The notes below the pieces were generated by a model. It ran no database searches. It was given only the letters and a program-made list of their open reading frames with translations, and had not been told where the DNA came from. A stretch of 64,000 nt of DNA from Thermoplasma acidophilum DSM 1728. Lineage in GTDB: Archaea; Thermoplasmatota; Thermoplasmata; Thermoplasmatales; Thermoplasmataceae. Of the stretch, positions 36,183-48,503 are shown one piece after another. A program made the translations under genes and the position numbers. Within the stretch, counting starts at the first letter, position 1; each line of letters opens with the position of its first letter. The stretch is from contig NC_002578.1 in the NCBI RefSeq assembly GCF_000195915.1, positions 868,001-932,000 on the forward strand, given 5' to 3'.

Positions 36183-37943
36183 TCATTTGTGCGGTACTAT
36201 GGCCGGTTCTGTGAAATTAACTGCCGCTAATGCCCCATCGTAATGCTGGTTATAGACTATGATGTATACCGTCTGCGGTAAATTCGAAGTAACGGCGAGG
36301 AGAAACGTCGAACCGCCGCTAAGAACGAATGGGTAATCGCTTCCCTGAGATACAACTGCGTTCTCGACCATGACGCTGTAATTTCTGCCAAGCGTCCCGA
36401 ATGCATAGATGTTGACCATCTGCGTTGATACAGTGTTGCTGATCAATGGCATTTTGAGGGTATCGTTCACTGTAGCGTTCACATCAAGAGGGTTGCTGTG
36501 GCGAATCGTGAAATTATTTGTGAGTTCAATGAAGTAAACATGCACGCTGATCGATTCCGAGGCGGTGGATGTGAAGACTGAGACAGTATAGGTGTAAAAT
36601 CCTGGGCTTGATTCTGTGAAATTCATCGTTATGTTGAATATATCCGTACTTGAAGGCGATACGGATCTATGCAAGGAGCTGGCATGCCACTTTATGGAGG
36701 GAGTGATGGAGAAACCAGGTGTGATTTGCGATGTCCCGTGGTTCGATACATATATGGGGCAGGATATGTTGGTGGATATGTTTGCATCCATAGAATAGAC
36801 AACAAACTGGTTCTCCCCGTAGCTGATCGAGAACTGGGGCGGAATGGCATGAAAAGGTATCGGCACTAGACCGATGAGTATTACGATGCCCACCGAGACC
36901 GCTACAGCCTTGACATATGATGATGATCTTCCCACATTGTTAAGCGGTTCTGGCCCCCTGATGCCCAGTATCAGGACGAATACCAGGAGGATCAACCATG
37001 AAGGATACAGTATGGAAAGGCCTATGACCGCGACCACAGCAACGTATGACAGATACTGTGACCATCTGCCCAGCATGGCTGAGGATATAAGGCCTCCGTC
37101 AAGGAAGCCTATGGGCATTACATTGAAGGATGTGGCGATGATGCCTATCCATCCAGCGTATGCCGTCGGAAAGAGGACCCCGTCTGAAGGGACAAAGCTT
37201 CTCATCGCAGCCTGGAATATCAGTGGGCTTCCGATCTGCAGTATGGGCGATTTAACACCGGAAACTGGCGCATGCTGCATCAGCGACAGGTAGCCGCCAA
37301 CAACAACAAAAAGAAGGGACACAAGAAAACCGAAGAGGATTGAGAAGAAAGAGGATTCAACCATGGCCCTCTTGCTTGGATAGGCCACATTCGGTGCATT
37401 TATAGATCCCATGGTTCCCATGCCGATGGGATCGGGCACGAAGATTGGAAAGGAATACTCCATGCTGTTCCTCTTCATGCCCAAATATCTGCCAAACTCC
37501 CGTGCGCCAAGGATAGCAAAAACCGGTATCACAAAGTATCCGATAGTCTGAACCATGGCGATGATGGGTGCAGATGAAAAATATGCGGAAACATATGAAT
37601 AGCCAACATAGAACAACGTTATTACGGTTGCTATTGCCATCGCTATCTTCAGGATCGATCTTTTTGGTTTTTCTGGCTCCCTTATGATTATTATCTCGCT
37701 GCTTGTCCTGGTAAACGCCACATAACCCAGTTTCCTGAGATCCGAAACAAGCATAGAAAAATAGTCCTCGGGATAGTAATCGATATCCTCGACATCCACT
37801 ATGAACTCTCCTTCCTCCTCCCTTATCCTCTTGACGCCATAGTATCGGCCGACTATCTGCTGTAACTGTTCCGGTTGCATGTATGTATTTTTACCTAATC
37901 TGAATGATGTATTATTAAGGTTTGTCCCCTGCGCATCTGTCAT
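36183..37943 (-). CDS. Site-2-protease-like (M50 family) membrane protein lacking the HExxH histidines
   Basis: 586 residues. A cytosolic N-domain (1-95) is followed by membrane helices from about 97 to 380 and a long, Ser/Thr/Asn-rich, probably extracytoplasmic C-domain (about 385-586) with many N-x-S/T sequons. The core follows the EGY1-like S2P pattern (F-P-I-F-V-P-D-P-I-G-M-G-T-M-G-S…). The second motif N-x-x-P-x-x-x-L-D-G-G is intact (Asn274, Asp282), but the HExxH site reads R148-E149-F-G-R152. Two zinc ligands are thus missing and it is probably not a conventional protease. ATG 37880 (Met22) is an alternative start, with a TTAATAAT box upstream. It converges with lhr. Confidence 0.78.
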   Translation of the reverse strand: MTDAQGTNLNNTSFRLGKNTYMQPEQLQQIVGRYYGVKRIREEEGEFIVDVEDIDYYPEDYFSMLVSDLRKLGYVAFTRTSSEIIIIREPEKPKRSILKIAMAIATVITLFYVGYSYVSAYFSSAPIIAMVQTIGYFVIPVFAILGAREFGRYLGMKRNSMEYSFPIFVPDPIGMGTMGSINAPNVAYPSKRAMVESSFFSILFGFLVSLLFVVVGGYLSLMQHAPVSGVKSPILQIGSPLIFQAAMRSFVPSDGVLFPTAYAGWIGIIATSFNVMPIGFLDGGLISSAMLGRWSQYLSYVAVVAVIGLSILYPSWLILLVFVLILGIRGPEPLNNVGRSSSYVKAVAVSVGIVILIGLVPIPFHAIPPQFSISYGENQFVVYSMDANISTNISCPIYVSNHGTSQITPGFSITPSIKWHASSLHRSVSPSSTDIFNITMNFTESSPGFYTYTVSVFTSTASESISVHVYFIELTNNFTIRHSNPLDVNATVNDTLKMPLISNTVSTQMVNIYAFGTLGRNYSVMVENAVVSQGSDYPFVLSGGSTFLLAVTSNLPQTVYIIVYNQHYDGALAAVNFTEPAIVPHK

Positions 37944-38393
37944 TTTTTTAATGAGACGCGGTGTCTGACGTCAAAAAGCGATAAAATTTGCCAGCTAAAA
38001 ATATGTATGCCGGAAATTTATTGGCAAAGACGAATGAAGCTCAATATTCGATCATCTCCAGAATTCGGTGGAATGTGCTGCCAAAAGTTCAGTCCAGGAA
38101 ACTTAAATTTCAGTGGTGCTGATCCTTACCCTGGCATTTGCCTGCCTGCATAAAGAAGTACTGTTTTGAAGATCAGTAATCTTCGAAAGAGCACTCACTT
38201 CATTCAGAATAGAAATCTGAAGCATAATGGAATAAACTACAATGGACGTGAAGTTGGCTGCAAAAAAAGTGAGGTTTATTCTGAATCAGATCCTGTTAGA
38301 CTCGCAGCAATTAGCTTTCTGTTACCTTGGGGAAGCCCATCCTCTGATGGAAAGCATCGGACGATCCTGCAGAGTAAAAATGGCGCAGAAAGA
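37944..38393. other. Intergenic region between VAT and the S2P-like gene
   Basis: 450 bases downstream of VAT and upstream of the S2P-like gene. One 111-codon plus-strand frame enters the VAT 3' end and has no family resemblance, so it is not called. A hairpin, GAAGAT/ATCTTC with a five-base loop, is at 38168-38184. I see no RNA gene I can name. Confidence 0.45.
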
Positions 38394-40676
<2,283 letters not shown>

Positions 40677-40805
40677 CTAGGAGGTCTATGATTTCGTAAT
40701 GTTTGGCAGAATTTGATTACGGATCCATAACAACAATGAAGAAAACAATACAGCGATGATCACCATGGAATGAAAAATTTGATTCAAACTCGAATGAATT
40801 GGAAC

Positions 40806-40815
40806 GGTTTTTATA
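40806..40815 (+). promoter_or_regulatory. TATA box of the MDR reductase gene
   Basis: GTTTTTATAC, centred about 26 bases before ATG 40837; leaderless transcript predicted. Confidence 0.6.
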
Positions 40816-40836
40816 CGCTCTTCAGATAATGCATAC

Positions 40837-41847
40837 ATGAAGGCAGCCCTACTAGAAAAATTGAATCAGCCCTTGTCCATTGTTGATCGTGAGATTCCGG
40901 AACCTGGCGAAAACGAAGTGGTTATAAAGCAGGACTATGCCGGCCTCTGTTATCGTGATATTCTCAGCGCCACCGGCTTTTTTCCGAGGATACAGTTGCC
41001 GATAATACCTGGCCATGAGATAGGAGGCACTGTGGTGAAAACCGGCAGCGAGGTACGCAATTTCCATGTAGGCGATCATGTTGCCAGCCTCATATACATT
41101 CCGTGCGGAAAATGCGAATACTGCAGATCTGGGAATGAAAATCTTTGCCCGTATAAGAAATCGATCGGAGAGGAAGTCCAGGGCGGTTTCCGGGAATACG
41201 TCAACGTGCCGGAGATAAGCCTGATAAGCGCACCTAAGGAAGTTGACACCAGGTACCTTCCAATAGCGTCATGTGTGACGGGTATGATATATCATGCACT
41301 TTTCAAGCTGGCAAAGGTCAAGGAGGGCCAGAGGGTTCTGATAACAGGTGCAGGCGGAGGTGTTGGATCTAACGCTGTGCAGATGGCAAAGGCGTTCGGC
41401 GCAACTGTCATAGCGGAAACCACCTCAGAATCAAAGAAGGAGATGCTGGAGAAGATTGGCGCAGATTACATAGTTGACGGAAATGGAAAATTCAATGAGG
41501 ATGTGAAGAAGATCGGCGGCGCGGATATAGTCTTAGAATGCGTGGGAATACATACATTTGAGAGATCGCTGAGGAGCCTGAACAACGGCGGAAAGATGAT
41601 CGTTATAGGAAATATAAAGCCAGATCCTGTAAATCTCCCATTGGGCCTGATAATCCTGAAGGGCAATACCATAAGGGGAAGCATAAGCTCCACCAGAAAG
41701 GATGTTTCAGATGCCCTGAAGATGGTTGCAGAAAACAGGATAAAGCCCGTCATAGGATCTGAAGTGAGCATTGACAGGATAAATGAAGCCATGGAGATGA
41801 TGAAAAACAAACAGACTGAAGGGCGTGTTCTGATTAAATTTAGTTGA
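40837..41847 (+). CDS. Zinc-binding medium-chain dehydrogenase/reductase (alcohol dehydrogenase or acryloyl-CoA reductase-like)
   Basis: 336 residues. GroES-like domain with catalytic-zinc ligands in L-C-Y-R-D and G-H-E, the structural-zinc cysteines C-G-K-C-E-Y-C…N-L-C, and Rossmann motif G-A-G-G-G-V-G. The L-C-Y-R-D-I-L…F-F-P-R-I-Q-L-P-I-I-P-G-H-E pattern resembles the acryloyl-CoA reductases of Sulfolobales as much as ordinary alcohol dehydrogenases. If so it would act in propionyl-CoA metabolism, fitting the CoA-transferases earlier in the window (inference). Confidence 0.86.
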   Translation: MKAALLEKLNQPLSIVDREIPEPGENEVVIKQDYAGLCYRDILSATGFFPRIQLPIIPGHEIGGTVVKTGSEVRNFHVGDHVASLIYIPCGKCEYCRSGNENLCPYKKSIGEEVQGGFREYVNVPEISLISAPKEVDTRYLPIASCVTGMIYHALFKLAKVKEGQRVLITGAGGGVGSNAVQMAKAFGATVIAETTSESKKEMLEKIGADYIVDGNGKFNEDVKKIGGADIVLECVGIHTFERSLRSLNNGGKMIVIGNIKPDPVNLPLGLIILKGNTIRGSISSTRKDVSDALKMVAENRIKPVIGSEVSIDRINEAMEMMKNKQTEGRVLIKFS

Positions 41848-41874
41848 ACCCGAAGATATTTAGGAGGTCATTCA

Positions 41875-42273
41875 TCATTCATCTATCTTCTTTCCATGTG
41901 GGCACATCTTCGGGTTTCCAATTGATTGCGAAATCTTCTTTGCGTCGTCGTAATCGATGAGAAAGTCAAAGTTGCCTATCTTCCTGCAGGCATCATCCGC
42001 ATCTATGCCGCTCCTGCTATATAGAACCTCAAGAGTGCGATGGACCATCACAATCTTTCTGTAAGTCTCCTCTCCCTTTTCCGTCAGGGCAACCATTCCG
42101 CGATCCTTTTTAATCAGCCCCTTTTCCTGGAGCCTGTTCAGGATCTCCAATACCGACGGCGGTTTAATATTCATCGATGCTGACAGATCCTTCAATCTTA
42201 CCGGAAATGGGCCGCTGGAGGATTCTTTTATGGTTATCAGGCAATCCCTCTCCTTCTTAGTTATAGCTTCCAT
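41875..42273 (-). CDS. DtxR/MntR-family metal-dependent transcriptional regulator
   Basis: 132 residues. N-terminal winged helix (about 1-65: R-L-K-D-L-S-A-S-M-N-I-K-P-P-S-V-L-E then G-L-I-K-K-D-R-G), then the dimerisation and metal-binding region with H-R-x-L-E-V-L and a C-P-H-G motif near the C-terminus. It lacks the SH3-like third domain, as short MntR-type regulators do. Probably represses iron or manganese uptake genes when metal-loaded. A CTTTAAATAAG box (about 42307-42297) gives a leaderless start at 42273. No transporter target is adjacent. Confidence 0.84.
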   Translation of the reverse strand: MEAITKKERDCLITIKESSSGPFPVRLKDLSASMNIKPPSVLEILNRLQEKGLIKKDRGMVALTEKGEETYRKIVMVHRTLEVLYSRSGIDADDACRKIGNFDFLIDYDDAKKISQSIGNPKMCPHGKKIDE

Positions 42274-42413
42274 ATATTATTAGTATTAATCTAACTTATT
42301 TAAAGATTTTCAATTTGCGAGCTAATTCGTCTTTCATTTATCTTTTCGGTATTTGCAGCAATGACCCGAATCAAAAAATTTAAGCCATAAAGGTTTTAGA
42401 GGTAGTGATCCGT

Positions 42414-42575
42414 ATGGAAGAGCTGATATGTAATATCGAGTTTGCAAAGGAATCGGAGACAGAATATACGGCAAAACTCAGGACTGAAATGGGCGGCCTG
42501 AGGGAATACTCAGGAAGAACGTTCGAGGATGTTCTCAATCAGGTTATACTGGAGCTTGAAGAGGAATTTTCCTGA
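42414..42575 (+). CDS. Small acidic conserved-looking protein (53 residues), unknown
   Basis: ATG 42414 to TGA 42573-42575, with AGGTAGTGA upstream. Soluble and acidic, with a beta-type N-terminal half (L-I-C-N-I-E-F…E-Y-T-A-K-L-R) and an amphipathic helix at the end (F-E-D-V-L-N-Q-V-I-L-E-L-E-E-E-F). This resembles small beta-beta-alpha proteins. It is divergent from the DtxR-type regulator and followed by a hairpin at 42628-42646. The frame has normal codon use, so I think it is real; no family recognised. Confidence 0.55.
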   Translation: MEELICNIEFAKESETEYTAKLRTEMGGLREYSGRTFEDVLNQVILELEEEFS

Positions 42576-42627
42576 TTTTTCTGTATTTACCATAAAAAGA
42601 AGCATATTTTTCCAGAATCAATCTGGC

Positions 42628-42646
42628 GCGATCCTTAAAAGATCGC
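42628..42646 (+). terminator. Hairpin after the 53-residue ORF
   Basis: GCGATC-CTTAAAA-GATCGC, a perfect 6-bp stem, flanked by GGCGC and GCGCC that allow an alternative longer stem, and followed by a T-rich run (TTTC…GTTTTT). A possible terminator; archaeal terminators often need only the T-run. Confidence 0.4.
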
Positions 42647-42766
42647 CCATGCGCCGTTTCTTACGTTTTTACCTATAACTCATCGCGGACAAAAAACTCA
42701 AATATAAAAGGCATGTTCAGTGAATATCGGTTGCATATAGCGTGTCGTTATATTTTCTGATGCTAT

Positions 42767-42776
42767 CTTTTTAAAT
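42767..42776 (+). promoter_or_regulatory. TATA box of the E1-like gene
   Basis: CTTTTTAAAT about 25 bases before the ATG pair at 42796 and 42799; leaderless transcript predicted. Confidence 0.55.
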
Positions 42777-42795
42777 TTTGATGCAATAGAGATGC

Positions 42796-43581
42796 ATGAT
42801 GCCAGAAGATTACAAATATGCAAGGCAGATGGTATTGCGGCAATTTGACAAAGATGACATTGCTAAAATAAGAAGGGCAAGGATACTCGTGGTCGGCCTT
42901 GGTGGAGTGGGCAGCCTCATAGCCGATCTGCTGGTACGCAGCGGAGTAAAAAAGGTTGTACTTATAGACCGCGATTATGTATCTTCATCAAACCTCTACA
43001 GGCAGACTCTGTATTCCGAAGAGGACATTGGTGATTCCAAGGTGGAGGCTGCAAAGAGAAGGCTGCAAAAGGTGAATACAGAGGTTGAGGTTGAGGCTAT
43101 AAACGAGACGTTCGATGCAACAAATGCTGAAGCCCTTGTATCGTCAGTTGATCTGGTCATGGACGGAACGGACAATCTGACGAGCAGACTAATCATAAAT
43201 GATGCCTGCGTCAAGTTGAAGCGGCCCTGGGTTATGGCATCGGCAATCGAAACTTATGGGCAGGTAAAAGCTGTAATACCTGAAAAAACATCATGCTACA
43301 GGTGCTACTTCACCAGCGAGCCATTCGCTCAGCCGACATGTGCCGAGGTTGGCGTTTTGAATTCCCTGGTCACTGCGATATCATCTATCGCCTTCACGCT
43401 AGCCATGAAAATATTAACTGGCAAGGAAGTGGACGGATCCATATACAACCTAGATATCTGGACGATGGATCTTGACAAGATAGCAGTAGACAGAAGAGAG
43501 GATTGCCCATCGTGTGGATTGCATCAGTATGAATACCTGACTGACAGGTATAAGAATATAGGCCTCGAATTCATGCCCTGA
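42796..43581 (+). CDS. E1-like adenylyltransferase (ThiF/MoeB/UbaA family)
   Basis: 261 residues (ATG 42796 or 42799). ATP-binding V-G-L-G-G-V-G-S-L, the R-Q-x-L-Y segment with the arginine finger, D-G-T-D-N and a zinc tetrad of two CxxC pairs (Y-R-C-Y-F with its preceding Cys, and C-P-S-C-G). The candidate catalytic cysteine is in [10 protein letters not shown]. In archaea a single such E1 commonly activates ubiquitin-like SAMPs and sulfur carriers for molybdopterin, tungstopterin and tRNA thiolation. AOR in this window needs pterin cofactor, so that role fits. Confidence 0.88.
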
Positions 43582-43583
43582 AG

Positions 43584-44210
43584 ATGGCAATGCAGATAAA
43601 AGGCGTGATCTTCGACTTCGACGGTACGCTCCTGGATTCTGTTGAACTCAGGATAACCGCATGGAAGAAGGCATTTCAGAATTTCGGAGTGAATGTCCCG
43701 GAGGATCTCATCAGACCGATGATAGGTTATCCAGGGATCGATCTAGCGAAAAAGTTTGTGAAGAATCCTCTTGACGTTGAGATGCTCCAGGAGGATTACT
43801 TTCTCAAGAATATAGAATCCGCGAAATTCTTTCAGGATGTGATTCCAACTCTCGCTGAACTTAGGAAACGCGGAATTAAAACTGCAGTTGTTACCTCGAC
43901 CAGAAGGATCGTTATGCAGAAGTTCAGTCTCCAAGTTGATCATGTCGTTACGATAGATGATGTGTCAAAGGGAAAGCCTGATCCAGAACCCTATCTGAAG
44001 GCGCTGAAGATGATGGGCATACCAGCCGAAGAATGCATCGTCGTCGGAGACATAGAAAATGATCTCATACCTGCTAAGAAGCTTAGATGTATCTCAGTAC
44101 TCGTAAAGCATGGGCGTGATATCAGTTCCAACTATGCCGATTATGAGATAGAAAATATAGCGGATATACTGAACGTCATAGATCATCTAGCTGAGAAAAA
44201 TAATAGGTGA
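43584..44210 (+). CDS. HAD-superfamily phosphatase (Gph/PGMB-like)
   Basis: 208 residues, beginning two bases after the E1 stop, so cotranscribed. HAD motif [10 protein letters not shown] near the N-terminus, motif II in V-V-T-S-T, a motif III Lys in K-G-K-P-D-P-E and motif IV V-G-D-I-E-N-D. The helical cap lies between motifs I and II, which fits small-molecule phosphatases such as phosphoglycolate phosphatase or beta-phosphoglucomutase. Substrate unknown. Its last 35 bases overlap the convergent gene 44176-44829. Confidence 0.84.
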
Positions 44211-44829
44211 AATTGGATATCTTCAGATAATTAACGGTATTGCCTATGGACGCGTTCGGGTTTGCCAGAGGTATTTTGATCGTAGCTGTTGATCCGCCTG
44301 TTAGCGTGAGATTATAGGTGAAGCCGTTTATATTTATATTCATCACATTGCCAGCGGTGAACGATGTTGGTACAAACGAAATCTCAACTGCATTTCCCTG
44401 ATCCTTTTCACTCACGTTCTCAAAGAGGCTGGGTACCGTTAGCGAAACCTTCTTTTCGAATACCGCGAAGAGTATTCTCTCACTGAACCTTATGGTTACG
44501 TTGACCGGCTTCAACATCCATCCAGCAGATATCAGCGTGGTCGTATTGACTGGTATAAGTAGATCGGCCGTCGCCTCAGAGAGGGCCGGTACCACTATTT
44601 CTGAATTGTAAAGGGTTATAACAGCGCCTGTGTATGCTCTATTTTCGAAGACAGCTTCCACCTTCAGGTAATAGCTCTGACCAAGTTTTTCGAGGCTGTT
44701 TATGTTGAACGAGTTTAGGATGGCGACAGACGTCATCTGCTGTTCCTGCACAGCTATTCCCGTTGAGACAAGCATAACGGAAACAAACACGGAGAAGACG
44801 AGGAGGAGGATCGAGACCGTCTGACGCAT
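44176..44829 (-). CDS. Membrane-anchored extracytoplasmic protein, unknown
   Basis: 217 residues. A hydrophobic N-terminal segment (about 5-27, [14 protein letters not shown]) acts as signal anchor. The rest is a beta-rich, Thr/Asn/Ser-rich domain with several N-x-S/T sequons, as in archaeal surface proteins. No enzyme motif or family recognised. It overlaps the 3' end of the HAD gene by 35 bases on the opposite strand. Confidence 0.65.
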
Positions 44830-44927
44830 ACTGAAAATAGCCGAAATTAATATTTAAATTTTATCGTAATTAGAACCGAATTTTTCTTCTTTTAGCTTGC
44901 ATTGTCTGACGAAAATATGACGGCATC

Positions 44928-44939
44928 ATTAATTTTTTA
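44928..44939 (+). promoter_or_regulatory. TATA-like box of the MTH1187-family gene
   Basis: ATTAATTTTTTA about 26 bases before ATG 44962, favouring that start over upstream in-frame codons. Confidence 0.5.
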
Positions 44940-44961
44940 TCGAAACACGCAATTTCGTATT

Positions 44962-45252
44962 ATGATCTTAGCTGAAGTAACCTACGTTCCAATCGGTTCA
45001 GGCACCTCTGCATCCAGATATATAAACGCAGCATTGGAAGAATTCAAAAAATATGGTATTAAATTTTATCCGAACAGCATGGGAACTGTTCTAGAAGCTA
45101 AGACCCTTGATGAGTTATTCGAAGCTGTGAAAAGAGGCGAAAGGGCCATTCTCTCCATGGACATAAAGAGGGTTGAAACGTATATCAAAATAGATGACAG
45201 GATCGATGTTGAGAACACGGCTGAGAGAAAGATCAGGGCACTAAAGTATTGA
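44962..45252 (+). CDS. MTH1187/YkoF-like thiamine-binding protein
   Basis: 96 residues from ATG 44962; a longer frame starts at 44902 but the TATA box and homology favour 44962. Ferredoxin-like fold pattern of the MTH1187 (DUF77) family: A-E-V-T-Y-V-P-I-G…S-x-Y-I-N-A-A-L, Y-P-N-S-M-G-T-V-L-E and R-A-I-L-S-M-D-I-K-R. Family members form tetramers and bind thiamine or related ligands. The exact role is unknown. Confidence 0.84.
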   Translation: MILAEVTYVPIGSGTSASRYINAALEEFKKYGIKFYPNSMGTVLEAKTLDELFEAVKRGERAILSMDIKRVETYIKIDDRIDVENTAERKIRALKY

Positions 45253-45366
45253 TGATCGGAGGCTAACGTCTCTCATGGCGTTTTTAGAATAATCGATGAA
45301 CATCGAATCGCTGGCAATGCATACTCGCACGGAAAGAACTTAAATAATTGTAAAAATTCAGGCTCC

Positions 45367-45792
45367 ATGGATCTCAAAGAATTTGCAAGAAGCCAGATGC
45401 AGGCAGCATGCCAGTACCTGAAGGAGAAAAACCCGAAATACGATTGGGTAGGTTTTTACGTCCTGGAACATGGAAAGCTGAAGCTGGAGGCATTCGTCGG
45501 CGAGAAAACTGATCACGTTGAGATCAATCTTGGTGATGGTCTATGCAGCCTCGCCGTCCTCAAGAATGATATAGTGAACGAGTACGATGTCAAGAGCAAT
45601 CCAAAGTATCTGGCGTGCTTTCCGTCAACCCAGTCTGAGATAGTTGTACCTGTCAGGTATCAAGGAGAACCCATAGGCGAAATAGACATAGATTCCGATA
45701 AGAAAGCCGCATTCAGCAAGGAAGACGAGGCCATGCTGTCAAGTATAGCCGATCTAATGGCACCACTCGTACATGAATTCTTTGTGAAATGA
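45367..45792 (+). CDS. GAF-domain protein, free methionine-(R)-sulfoxide reductase-like
   Basis: 141 residues, a single GAF domain with W-V-G-F-Y-V-L, G-D-G-L-C and A-C-F-P-S-T-Q-S-E-I-V-V-P-V. Cys60 and Cys84 are spaced 24 residues apart, like Cys94 and catalytic Cys118 of E. coli fRMsr. The third family cysteine (E. coli Cys84) corresponds to His50 here. It may still reduce free methionine-R-sulfoxide using two cysteines, or be a ligand-binding relative. A CTTAAATAAT box lies about 20 bases upstream. Confidence 0.8.
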   Translation: MDLKEFARSQMQAACQYLKEKNPKYDWVGFYVLEHGKLKLEAFVGEKTDHVEINLGDGLCSLAVLKNDIVNEYDVKSNPKYLACFPSTQSEIVVPVRYQGEPIGEIDIDSDKKAAFSKEDEAMLSSIADLMAPLVHEFFVK

Positions 45793-45887
45793 GTGCCGTC
45801 TATTGAAAATAGCCTTTTAACTAACATTAAAGAAGAGCCCAGTAAGCTTTCACAAAATTAGAAATAGTCTTTTAAAATCATACTCCA

Positions 45888-48503
45888 ATGGAAAAACAGA
45901 CTGGGGAGCTTGATCTGGAATTCTTTTTGAACAGCGGCTTTGAAAAGAAACAGTGCATTAAATGTGGATCATATTTCTGGACACAGGACAAGGAAAGGAA
46001 CACATGCGGAGATACACCGTGCGATGAATACACCTTCATAGGGAACAGCCCAGTTCCTAAGTCCTATTCGCTTAGCGAAATGCGTGATGCCTTTATAAAA
46101 TTCTTCGAGAAGAGGGGGCATAAGTTCCTGAAGCCCTATCCTGTCGTACCTAGATGGAGGGAGGACGTGCTTCTTGTCAATGCGTCAATATACGATTTTC
46201 AACCTCATGTTACATCCGGCATAGTCAGACCTCCCGGAAATCCCATAGTAATGTCACAGCCAAGCATCAGGATGAACGATGTGGATCTTGTTGGCATAAC
46301 CGGCAGGCATCTGACCAGCTTCGAGATGCTGTGCCATGATTCATTTAACACAAAGGATAAGACAGTCTATTGGAAGGAGGAAACGGTCCATTACTGCTAT
46401 GACTTTCTCACAGAGGGCCTAGGCATTGACGGGAAACTGATAAGCTTCAAGGAAAAGCCATGGTCAGGTGGAGGAAACGCCGGAAATGCCCTTGAGGTCT
46501 TTGTTCGTGGATTGGAGGTTGCCACCCTTGTGTTCATGGATATGAAGGAGGATCCGAACGGACCGTACGAGATAGACGGCATCCGCTATTCAAAGATGGA
46601 TATGCGGATAGTTGATACCGGATACGGACTAGAACGCCTTACATGGCTTTCGCAGGGGACACCCACGGTTTATCAGGCCATATATCCCGACATAATCCAG
46701 CATGTAATGAAGAACTCATCAGTTTCTGATATAGACGAAGAATTTCTGTCAGAGGTTGTAAAGGCCTCGGTTATGAAAGAGCCATACGAAGAATCATTCG
46801 TCATTTCGCAACTTGAGAAGCGTTATCCTGATGCCAGGCAAAGATTCGAAGAGATCAAGAAGGTACGGGACGTTTTCTTGATGATCGATCACGCCAGATC
46901 GCTTATGCACATGTTTGCAGCCTATGTCATCCCGTCCAACGTCAAGGTCGGGTACCTCGCCAGGATGCTTATAAGAAGAGCGTACAGGGCGATCAGCAAC
47001 ACAGGATATAGGGGAAGCCTGATGGATCTCATAAGGATGAACCACGAAGATCTGAAAGATATCGTCCCAGATTTTCCGGAACAGTTCGTATCAGATGTGC
47101 TATCCATTGAGGAGGAAAAGTACAGAGATGTTGAGAGGCATGGCACGCAGATCATAGATAAAATGATATCAAACAAGGGGAAGTTAAGCCTGGACGATCT
47201 CGTGCTTCTATACGATTCACACGGTATAAGCCCAGAAACCGTCAAGGCGTATCTTGAAACAAAAGGCATGGAAATAGATGTGCCTGATAATTTCCATGCT
47301 ATCGTCATAAAGAGGCATGAGAAGGGAGAAACTGAAAAGAAAAAATACAGCGATTATCCTGAAATAGAGACAAGAACGCTATATTACGATGATCCATTCA
47401 TGAGAGAATTCACGGGCCTGGTCTTATTCTCAAAGGGCAATGAAATTATACTGGATAAGACTGCATTCTACCCAGAGGGCGGTGGGCAGCCGTGGGATCT
47501 TGGTTATTTCGAATACAAGGGAAAGCGCATCAATGTGGTGGCTGTGAGAAAATACGGCAAGACCATCGTCCATACGCTGGACGGAGAGATACCCCAGGGT
47601 GTCCGTGTCCACGGCGTCATAGACTGGGAAAGAAGGTCAAGGCTGATGGTACACCATACATCCACTCATCTCCTCCTTGGAGTGCTCAGGGAGGTATTAG
47701 GAGAACACGTATGGCAGAACGGCGTCCAGAAGGATGTGGAAGAATCGAGGCTTGACATAACCCACTACAGAAAGATCGATGAAGAGACCATAAGGAAGAT
47801 CGAGGAACGCGTCTTCGATCTCATAAGGGAGGGGAGGGAGGTAAGCGTCAGGAACCTTGACTGGTACAGTGCCATAGATAAATATGGATTCAGGCTTTTT
47901 GAGGGTGGAGTGCCACTTACCCCTAAGATAAGGGTTGTGGAGATACAGGGTGTTGATGCCGAAGGCTGTGGTGGCACCCATCTGAAGAACATCTCCTCAA
48001 TAGGCGTCCTGAAGATCAGAAAGGTGGAGGCGATACAGGAGAACATATACAGAATAACGTTCTCGGCGGGAGTTCCTGCCCTTCATCTCTTCCAGGAATC
48101 GTACGAGGCGTCCTATGGCATATCCACGTTGCTGAAAAAGCCTATAGAAGAAATCGCCCAGTCCGTTTCGGAGCTTTCCAAGGGCTACGCTGATCTGAGG
48201 AGAAGCCTCGCCGAGGCCAGGCGCAGGGACATAGAGAACAGGATAGCCAATGCCAAGAAGATCGGAACTCCAGGTGCAGAATATCCCATAATAGAGGCGG
48301 ATGATGCCGATATAGGAGAAATATCGAGGATAGCGCATTCCAGGAAGGTGGATCTCATTGTTGAGACGCGCATTGCAGGAAAATTTAAGTATACCGCCAT
48401 TTCGCCTAGTAAAAAAGCCAGGGATATGATCAGAAAGCTGTTCAATGCAGATCCAGAGGGAAATGACTCCATGGCTTCATATATAAATGAATACAGCGAG
48501 TGA
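45888..48503 (+). CDS. alaS: Alanyl-tRNA synthetase
   Basis: 871 residues. The archaeal-type N-terminal zinc-finger-like extension (C-I-K-C-G…C-G-D…C-D-E) is followed by the class II core with motif 2 and motif 3 segments (S-F-E-M-L; G-Y-G-L-E-R). The editing domain has H-H-T-S-T-H and C-G-G-T-H-L zinc motifs. The C-terminal oligomerisation and tRNA-elbow region is short compared with most archaeal AlaRS (about 900 or more). It charges tRNA-Ala and edits Ser/Gly errors. Start ATG 45888. Confidence 0.95.

Follow-up and report, generated by a model that had tools for sequence, protein, structure and literature searches.

What is a membrane protease kept for once both histidine ligands of its catalytic zinc are gone? 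The question is raised by a 586-aa reading frame of Thermoplasma acidophilum (36183..37943, minus strand) within the window, by which we mean the whole stretch of 64,000 nucleotides analysed here (C1:868001-932000 of a genome of 1,564,906 bases). From the letters alone, this frame had been predicted to encode a homologue of site-2 proteases (S2Ps) with arginine in place of both zinc histidines, and both its sequence and the structural match of its core to a solved S2P (PDB 3b4r) bear this out. The five codons in question (37488..37502, minus strand), CGG GAG TTT GGC AGA, read R148-E149-F-G-R152 where HExxH would be expected, and the second S2P motif, N274-x7-D282-G-G (37092..37124, minus strand), is present in frame as described. 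The two arginine codons are indeed not one step from a histidine codon, CGG requiring two changes and AGA three. An HExxH elsewhere in the membrane core had been named as evidence against the reading; none occurs anywhere in the 586-aa frame. The protein thus lacks the two histidines that define an active S2P, yet retains the third zinc ligand, the Asp of (L)DGG. We refer to it as pseudo-S2P, since it is most likely a pseudoprotease.

We searched 117 genomes of the order, obtained matches in 112 and read 63 loci of the clade that carries the altered motif (hereafter the dead clade); genome G105 contributed one further intact dead copy, which was read on its own. The pattern [R/K]-E-x-x-[R/K] was found in 61/61 dead-clade sequences with readable motif columns, spanning 19 genera of the family Thermoplasmataceae (GTDB). 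The change is therefore conserved well beyond Thermoplasma, and the original argument that a reading error was unlikely gains force. Position 148 is Arg in 59 sequences and Lys in 2, position 152 is Lys in 33 and Arg in 28 (n=61 for both), E149 is unchanged in 61/61 and D282 in 62/62, and N274 is kept in 57/62, with one odd residue at this last position stemming from a locus of a Thermogymnomonas genome (L071) that looks frameshifted in the motif region. A smaller dead-clade alignment set against the genome collection retrieved relatives from Thermoplasma, Thermogymnomonas, Acidiplasma, Cuniculiplasma, Ferroplasmaceae and E-plasma. Orthologues retaining both histidines, likewise named beforehand as grounds for doubt, do exist in sister families; they lie outside the dead clade, however, and so place the loss in time without contradicting it. 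Genome G105 encodes two different intact dead long copies (L185 and L187), both reading RE..K, which reflect either another, recent duplication or an assembly of mixed origin.

Comparison with active homologues revealed that the change extends beyond the two histidines. Of the active sequences, 76/76 (35 sister-family long forms, 21 short forms and 20 proteins from other orders of the class) have HExxH as well as the second-motif Asp. Eight charged residues (H/E/D/R) are at least 96% invariant in these proteins, of which the dead clade retains just the acids E149 and D282 without exception: H285, H330 and R288 have all but vanished (remaining in 0-2 of 61-62 sequences), and R185 is kept in 8/62. 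The uncharged Q280 is also lost, as is the conserved G201-P202, near invariant in active homologues, while the gains of the dead clade include an invariant Tyr163 and Lys/Arg99. With the zinc ligands and other catalytic-site residues lost, proteolysis by pseudo-S2P is very unlikely, and we regard the protein as almost certainly dead as a zinc protease; it would bind no catalytic zinc and cleave nothing. Two congener comparisons gave dN/dS values of ~0.07-0.13, the larger of the two distances being near saturation, and, to judge from these sequences, the long dead copy is under purifying selection, with no decay. The pseudoprotease clade is real, old and selected.

An AlphaFold2 model built on an alignment of 67 long forms (mean pLDDT 88) resolves the domain layout. 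The N-terminal tail is of low confidence (pLDDT ~50) and holds two extra sequons, N10 and N11; the majority of orthologues begin near residue 22, and the true start may be Met22 (codon at 37878-37880). A soluble alpha/beta domain, presumed cytoplasmic, comprises residues 24-90 (37674..37874, minus strand) according to the predicted secondary structure; it is shared with a short active paralogue described below, and the core alignment with the short copies begins here. The S2P (M50) membrane core follows at residues 96-359 (36867..37658, minus strand), with model helices at 96-122, 126-158 (which contains RExxR), 191-222, 259-274, 282-312 (opening on D282), 316-326 and 342-359.

Because a Foldseek search with the whole protein was dominated by Ig-like domains outside the membrane, we modelled the core separately (pLDDT 87, or 86.8 to one decimal; pTM 0.86). 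Its best PDB match was the S2P of Methanocaldococcus jannaschii (3b4r; probability 1.00, with a moderate E of 6.6e-3), SpoIVFB (8vjl) ranked fourth, and no rhomboid structure appeared among the top 50 matches, which places the core in the S2P and not the rhomboid fold. Homology to M50 extends across the membrane core, supported by order-wide matches to active S2Ps and by tree placement among them. The Pfam Peptidase_M50 profile covers only its second half (profile positions 133-215), scoring 26.7 bits in the protein scan, just below the 27.2 cut-off, and 27.5 bits in the genome search. A sequence search against solved structures returned only weak Ig-like matches, the best with E 9e-4, as well as RseP (E 0.22).

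Beyond the last membrane helix lie two beta-sandwich (Ig-like) domains, residues 371-474 and 478-578 (36210..36833, minus strand), which in Foldseek resemble Ig/ASH-like domains. The large, sequon-rich outside domain noted at first reading was recovered in quantitative terms: its 221 residues hold 9 N-x-S/T sites as compared to 4.1 expected by shuffling (p 0.006), and the outside parts of dead, active and outgroup proteins alike show an approximately two-fold or greater enrichment. With the topology as predicted, this enrichment fits an extracellular, glycosylated outside domain.

The history of the protein was assessed with a maximum-likelihood tree of the core from which the motif columns had been removed. 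It supports a single origin of the dead clade (100/100), a short clade (100/99) and the separation of the outgroups (100/98); dead and short clades are sisters with moderate support (85/86), nested among active long forms that make up a grade. The branch leading to the dead clade is long, and artefacts arising from this could move the precise point at which the duplication is placed. In 57/60 long-form loci, dead and active alike, the gene immediately upstream on the same strand encodes AlaRS, an arrangement that marks the dead protein as the positional orthologue of the active long form, in the ancestral place. The outside domains of dead and active long forms are homologous as well (hhalign 98.7%, E 4e-16). 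Members of a membrane-protein family of ~575-600 aa are encoded near 23/60 long-form loci (16 dead, 7 active; L080 and L036, for example), downstream and on the same or the opposite strand.

In nearly every genome with a dead-clade protein, a short paralogue is encoded too, and all 41 intact short copies read carry HExxH. At least two matches were present in 35/35 Thermoplasmataceae genomes of at least 90% completeness; in contrast, complete genomes of other families mostly yielded one. The original prediction had proposed looking for a second, intact S2P in the genome, and T. acidophilum encodes HEMMH, HESAH and HELAH proteins. The HESAH protein is the short twin (359 aa; G000:C1:1393195-1394271, equivalent to L002:1321-2397). 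It shares the N-terminal domain and membrane core with pseudo-S2P and belongs to its sister clade, but keeps the zinc site and has no outside domain: short copies end 0-1 residues past the last membrane helix (21/21 measured). The Thermoplasma twin departs from the usual HELGH/HETGH and LDGG in reading HESAH and LDGS, the DGS variant being present in both Thermoplasma short sequences read for the second motif. In genome G060 the short copy falls into two pieces with overlapping residues (L186/L262; C-terminal part at 695441-696073, N-terminal part at 1934701-1935210, reaching the contig end), either through rearrangement or through an assembly fault, while the dead copy of the same genome is intact, a case that counts against the joint action of the two proposed below.

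Taken together, these comparisons point to the following course of events, each step read from the sequences. The ancestral protein of the order was a single chain that combined an active HExxH core with an Ig-like outside domain. On the simplest account, it was duplicated in the stem of the family; one copy kept the zinc site and came to lack the outside domain, and the other kept the outside domain while both of its zinc histidines turned into Arg or Lys. That the two copies arose by duplication with division of labour is very likely. The short twin, the retained Glu/Asp pair and the common descent of the outside domain were not part of the original prediction.

How might the altered core hold together? 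The two acids are kept and two new cations occupy the metal positions, from which we infer a salt-bridge substitute: the cations would pair with Glu149 and Asp282, and the resulting cluster would replace the zinc and hold the core together inside the membrane. Predicted as it is from the residues, such a replacement of the zinc site is probable. A closed S2P core joined to an outside domain suggests client binding. The outside domain would recognise membrane or envelope proteins and the core would hold a helix; most simply, clients might be presented to, or kept from, the short active S2P. That pseudo-S2P works together with its short twin is plausible at somewhat short of an even chance. In its most explicit form, this would be a split site-2 protease, a two-chain enzyme whose catalytic chain has no recognition domain and whose dead twin, with its Arg/Lys-Glu/Asp cluster, supplies recognition in trans, an arrangement that we put forward only tentatively; the short twin would then depend on the long one for cleavage of its natural clients. 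For the account as a whole—a pseudo-S2P born of duplication and division of labour and now serving as a non-catalytic, client-binding subunit—we consider the chances to be about even.

Genomic context and evolutionary rates do not tie the two chains to each other. The short copy adjoins the nurA-herA-mre11-rad50 DNA-repair genes (names assigned from sequence) in many of the family's genera, and the neighbourhoods of the short copies showed no linkage to the dead copy. The rates of dead and short copies covary with a partial r of 0.37; this was not above controls, with herA and nurA at ~0.58-0.59 versus 0.56 for the twins in the same ten genomes. Being matched by unrelated control genes, the covariation is no evidence of interaction between the twins. 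The unlinked genes and non-specific covariation sit well with a pseudoprotease that acts apart from the short S2P, akin to iRhoms or to plant EGY3, its dead core binding transmembrane helices and thereby stabilising or trafficking membrane or envelope proteins. The much faster evolution of the dead copy (mean distance 1.55 vs 0.58 for the short one) is what a new role would lead one to expect, and reports credit EGY3, another dead S2P, with stabilising proteins of the chloroplast (PMC10978774; PMC9355673). However, the outside domain is ancestral, kept by the dead copy and lost by the short one, which makes a split function simpler than a wholly new one, and no client of such an independent factor is known. 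It is a serious contender, if one we would not bet on at even odds. A trafficking or regulatory role of the iRhom type had also been raised in the original prediction; we found no partner or phenotype of pseudo-S2P to back it.

Retained activity was considered too. Glu149 and Asp282 are invariant and might in principle serve a different metal or a metal-free mechanism, but cations stand at the two metal-histidine positions throughout the dead clade, and the losses of Q280, H285, R288, H330, R185 and G201-P202 have no counterpart in the active clade, so that a protease of this kind is extremely unlikely. The gene next upstream on the same strand in T. acidophilum encodes VAT, a Cdc48/p97-type ATPase (38394..40652, minus strand). 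Derlins, which are rhomboids without activity, recruit p97, and by analogy pseudo-S2P might be an adaptor for VAT in membrane-protein extraction. This, too, is very unlikely: VAT adjoins the long S2P in no other locus examined, those of other Thermoplasma included, and with the adjacency not conserved we rejected the link. Across 37943-48500 of the window, VAT adjoins pseudo-S2P and AlaRS lies at 45876-48500 on the plus strand, whereas other Thermoplasma loci have AlaRS directly upstream on the same strand; it looks as if a local inversion or rearrangement in the T. acidophilum lineage displaced AlaRS and put VAT in its place. Finally, two changed key residues and a Pfam match confined to the second half of the domain could be put down to a sequencing error or a decaying pseudogene. 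Almost all orthologues, in 19 genera, nevertheless have intact frames of ~560-615 aa with the same class of replacement throughout and dN/dS well below 1; these conserved orthologues refute the idea, to which we assign next to no probability.

The closest counterparts of pseudo-S2P are the active long-form S2Ps found in the order's sister families, which match it in length, N-terminal domain, membrane core, outside-domain homology and gene position, but keep HExxH, H285, H330, Q280 and R288 and occur as single copies. M. jannaschii S2P, the best solved-structure match of the core, differs in being an active zinc protease that has neither the N-terminal nor the outside domain. Among rhomboids, intramembrane proteases that have lost catalysis are well known. 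With such pseudo-rhomboids—iRhoms and Derlins—pseudo-S2P has in common an intramembrane-protease fold that is catalytically dead yet maintained by selection, and the logic of working in trans; they differ in their unrelated fold and their serine catalytic class, and no common ancestry connects the two groups. Within the S2P family, plant EGY3 lacks the zinc motif and is classed as a pseudoprotease (PMC10978774, PMC9355673), and a 2022 paper named it the only pseudoenzyme of the family (PMC9355673). By its published description, EGY3 resembles pseudo-S2P as an S2P homologue without the zinc motif that is kept by selection, yet it is a chloroplast protein confined to plants (PMC9355673). The origin of the dead clade inside archaeal active S2Ps, in a tree confined to sequences of the archaeal class, argues for a separate origin from EGY3. 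We found no publication on the T. acidophilum protein or on any archaeal pseudo-S2P in the open-access literature, and the archaeal clade looks new.

With active long forms of the ancestral type to one side of it and an active twin to the other, this prokaryotic pseudo-S2P clade provides a test case for how an intramembrane zinc site can be dismantled without losing the fold, and lets one ask what purpose the dead protein serves. Should the twins cooperate, they would represent a rare intramembrane protease in which one chain cuts and another recognises.
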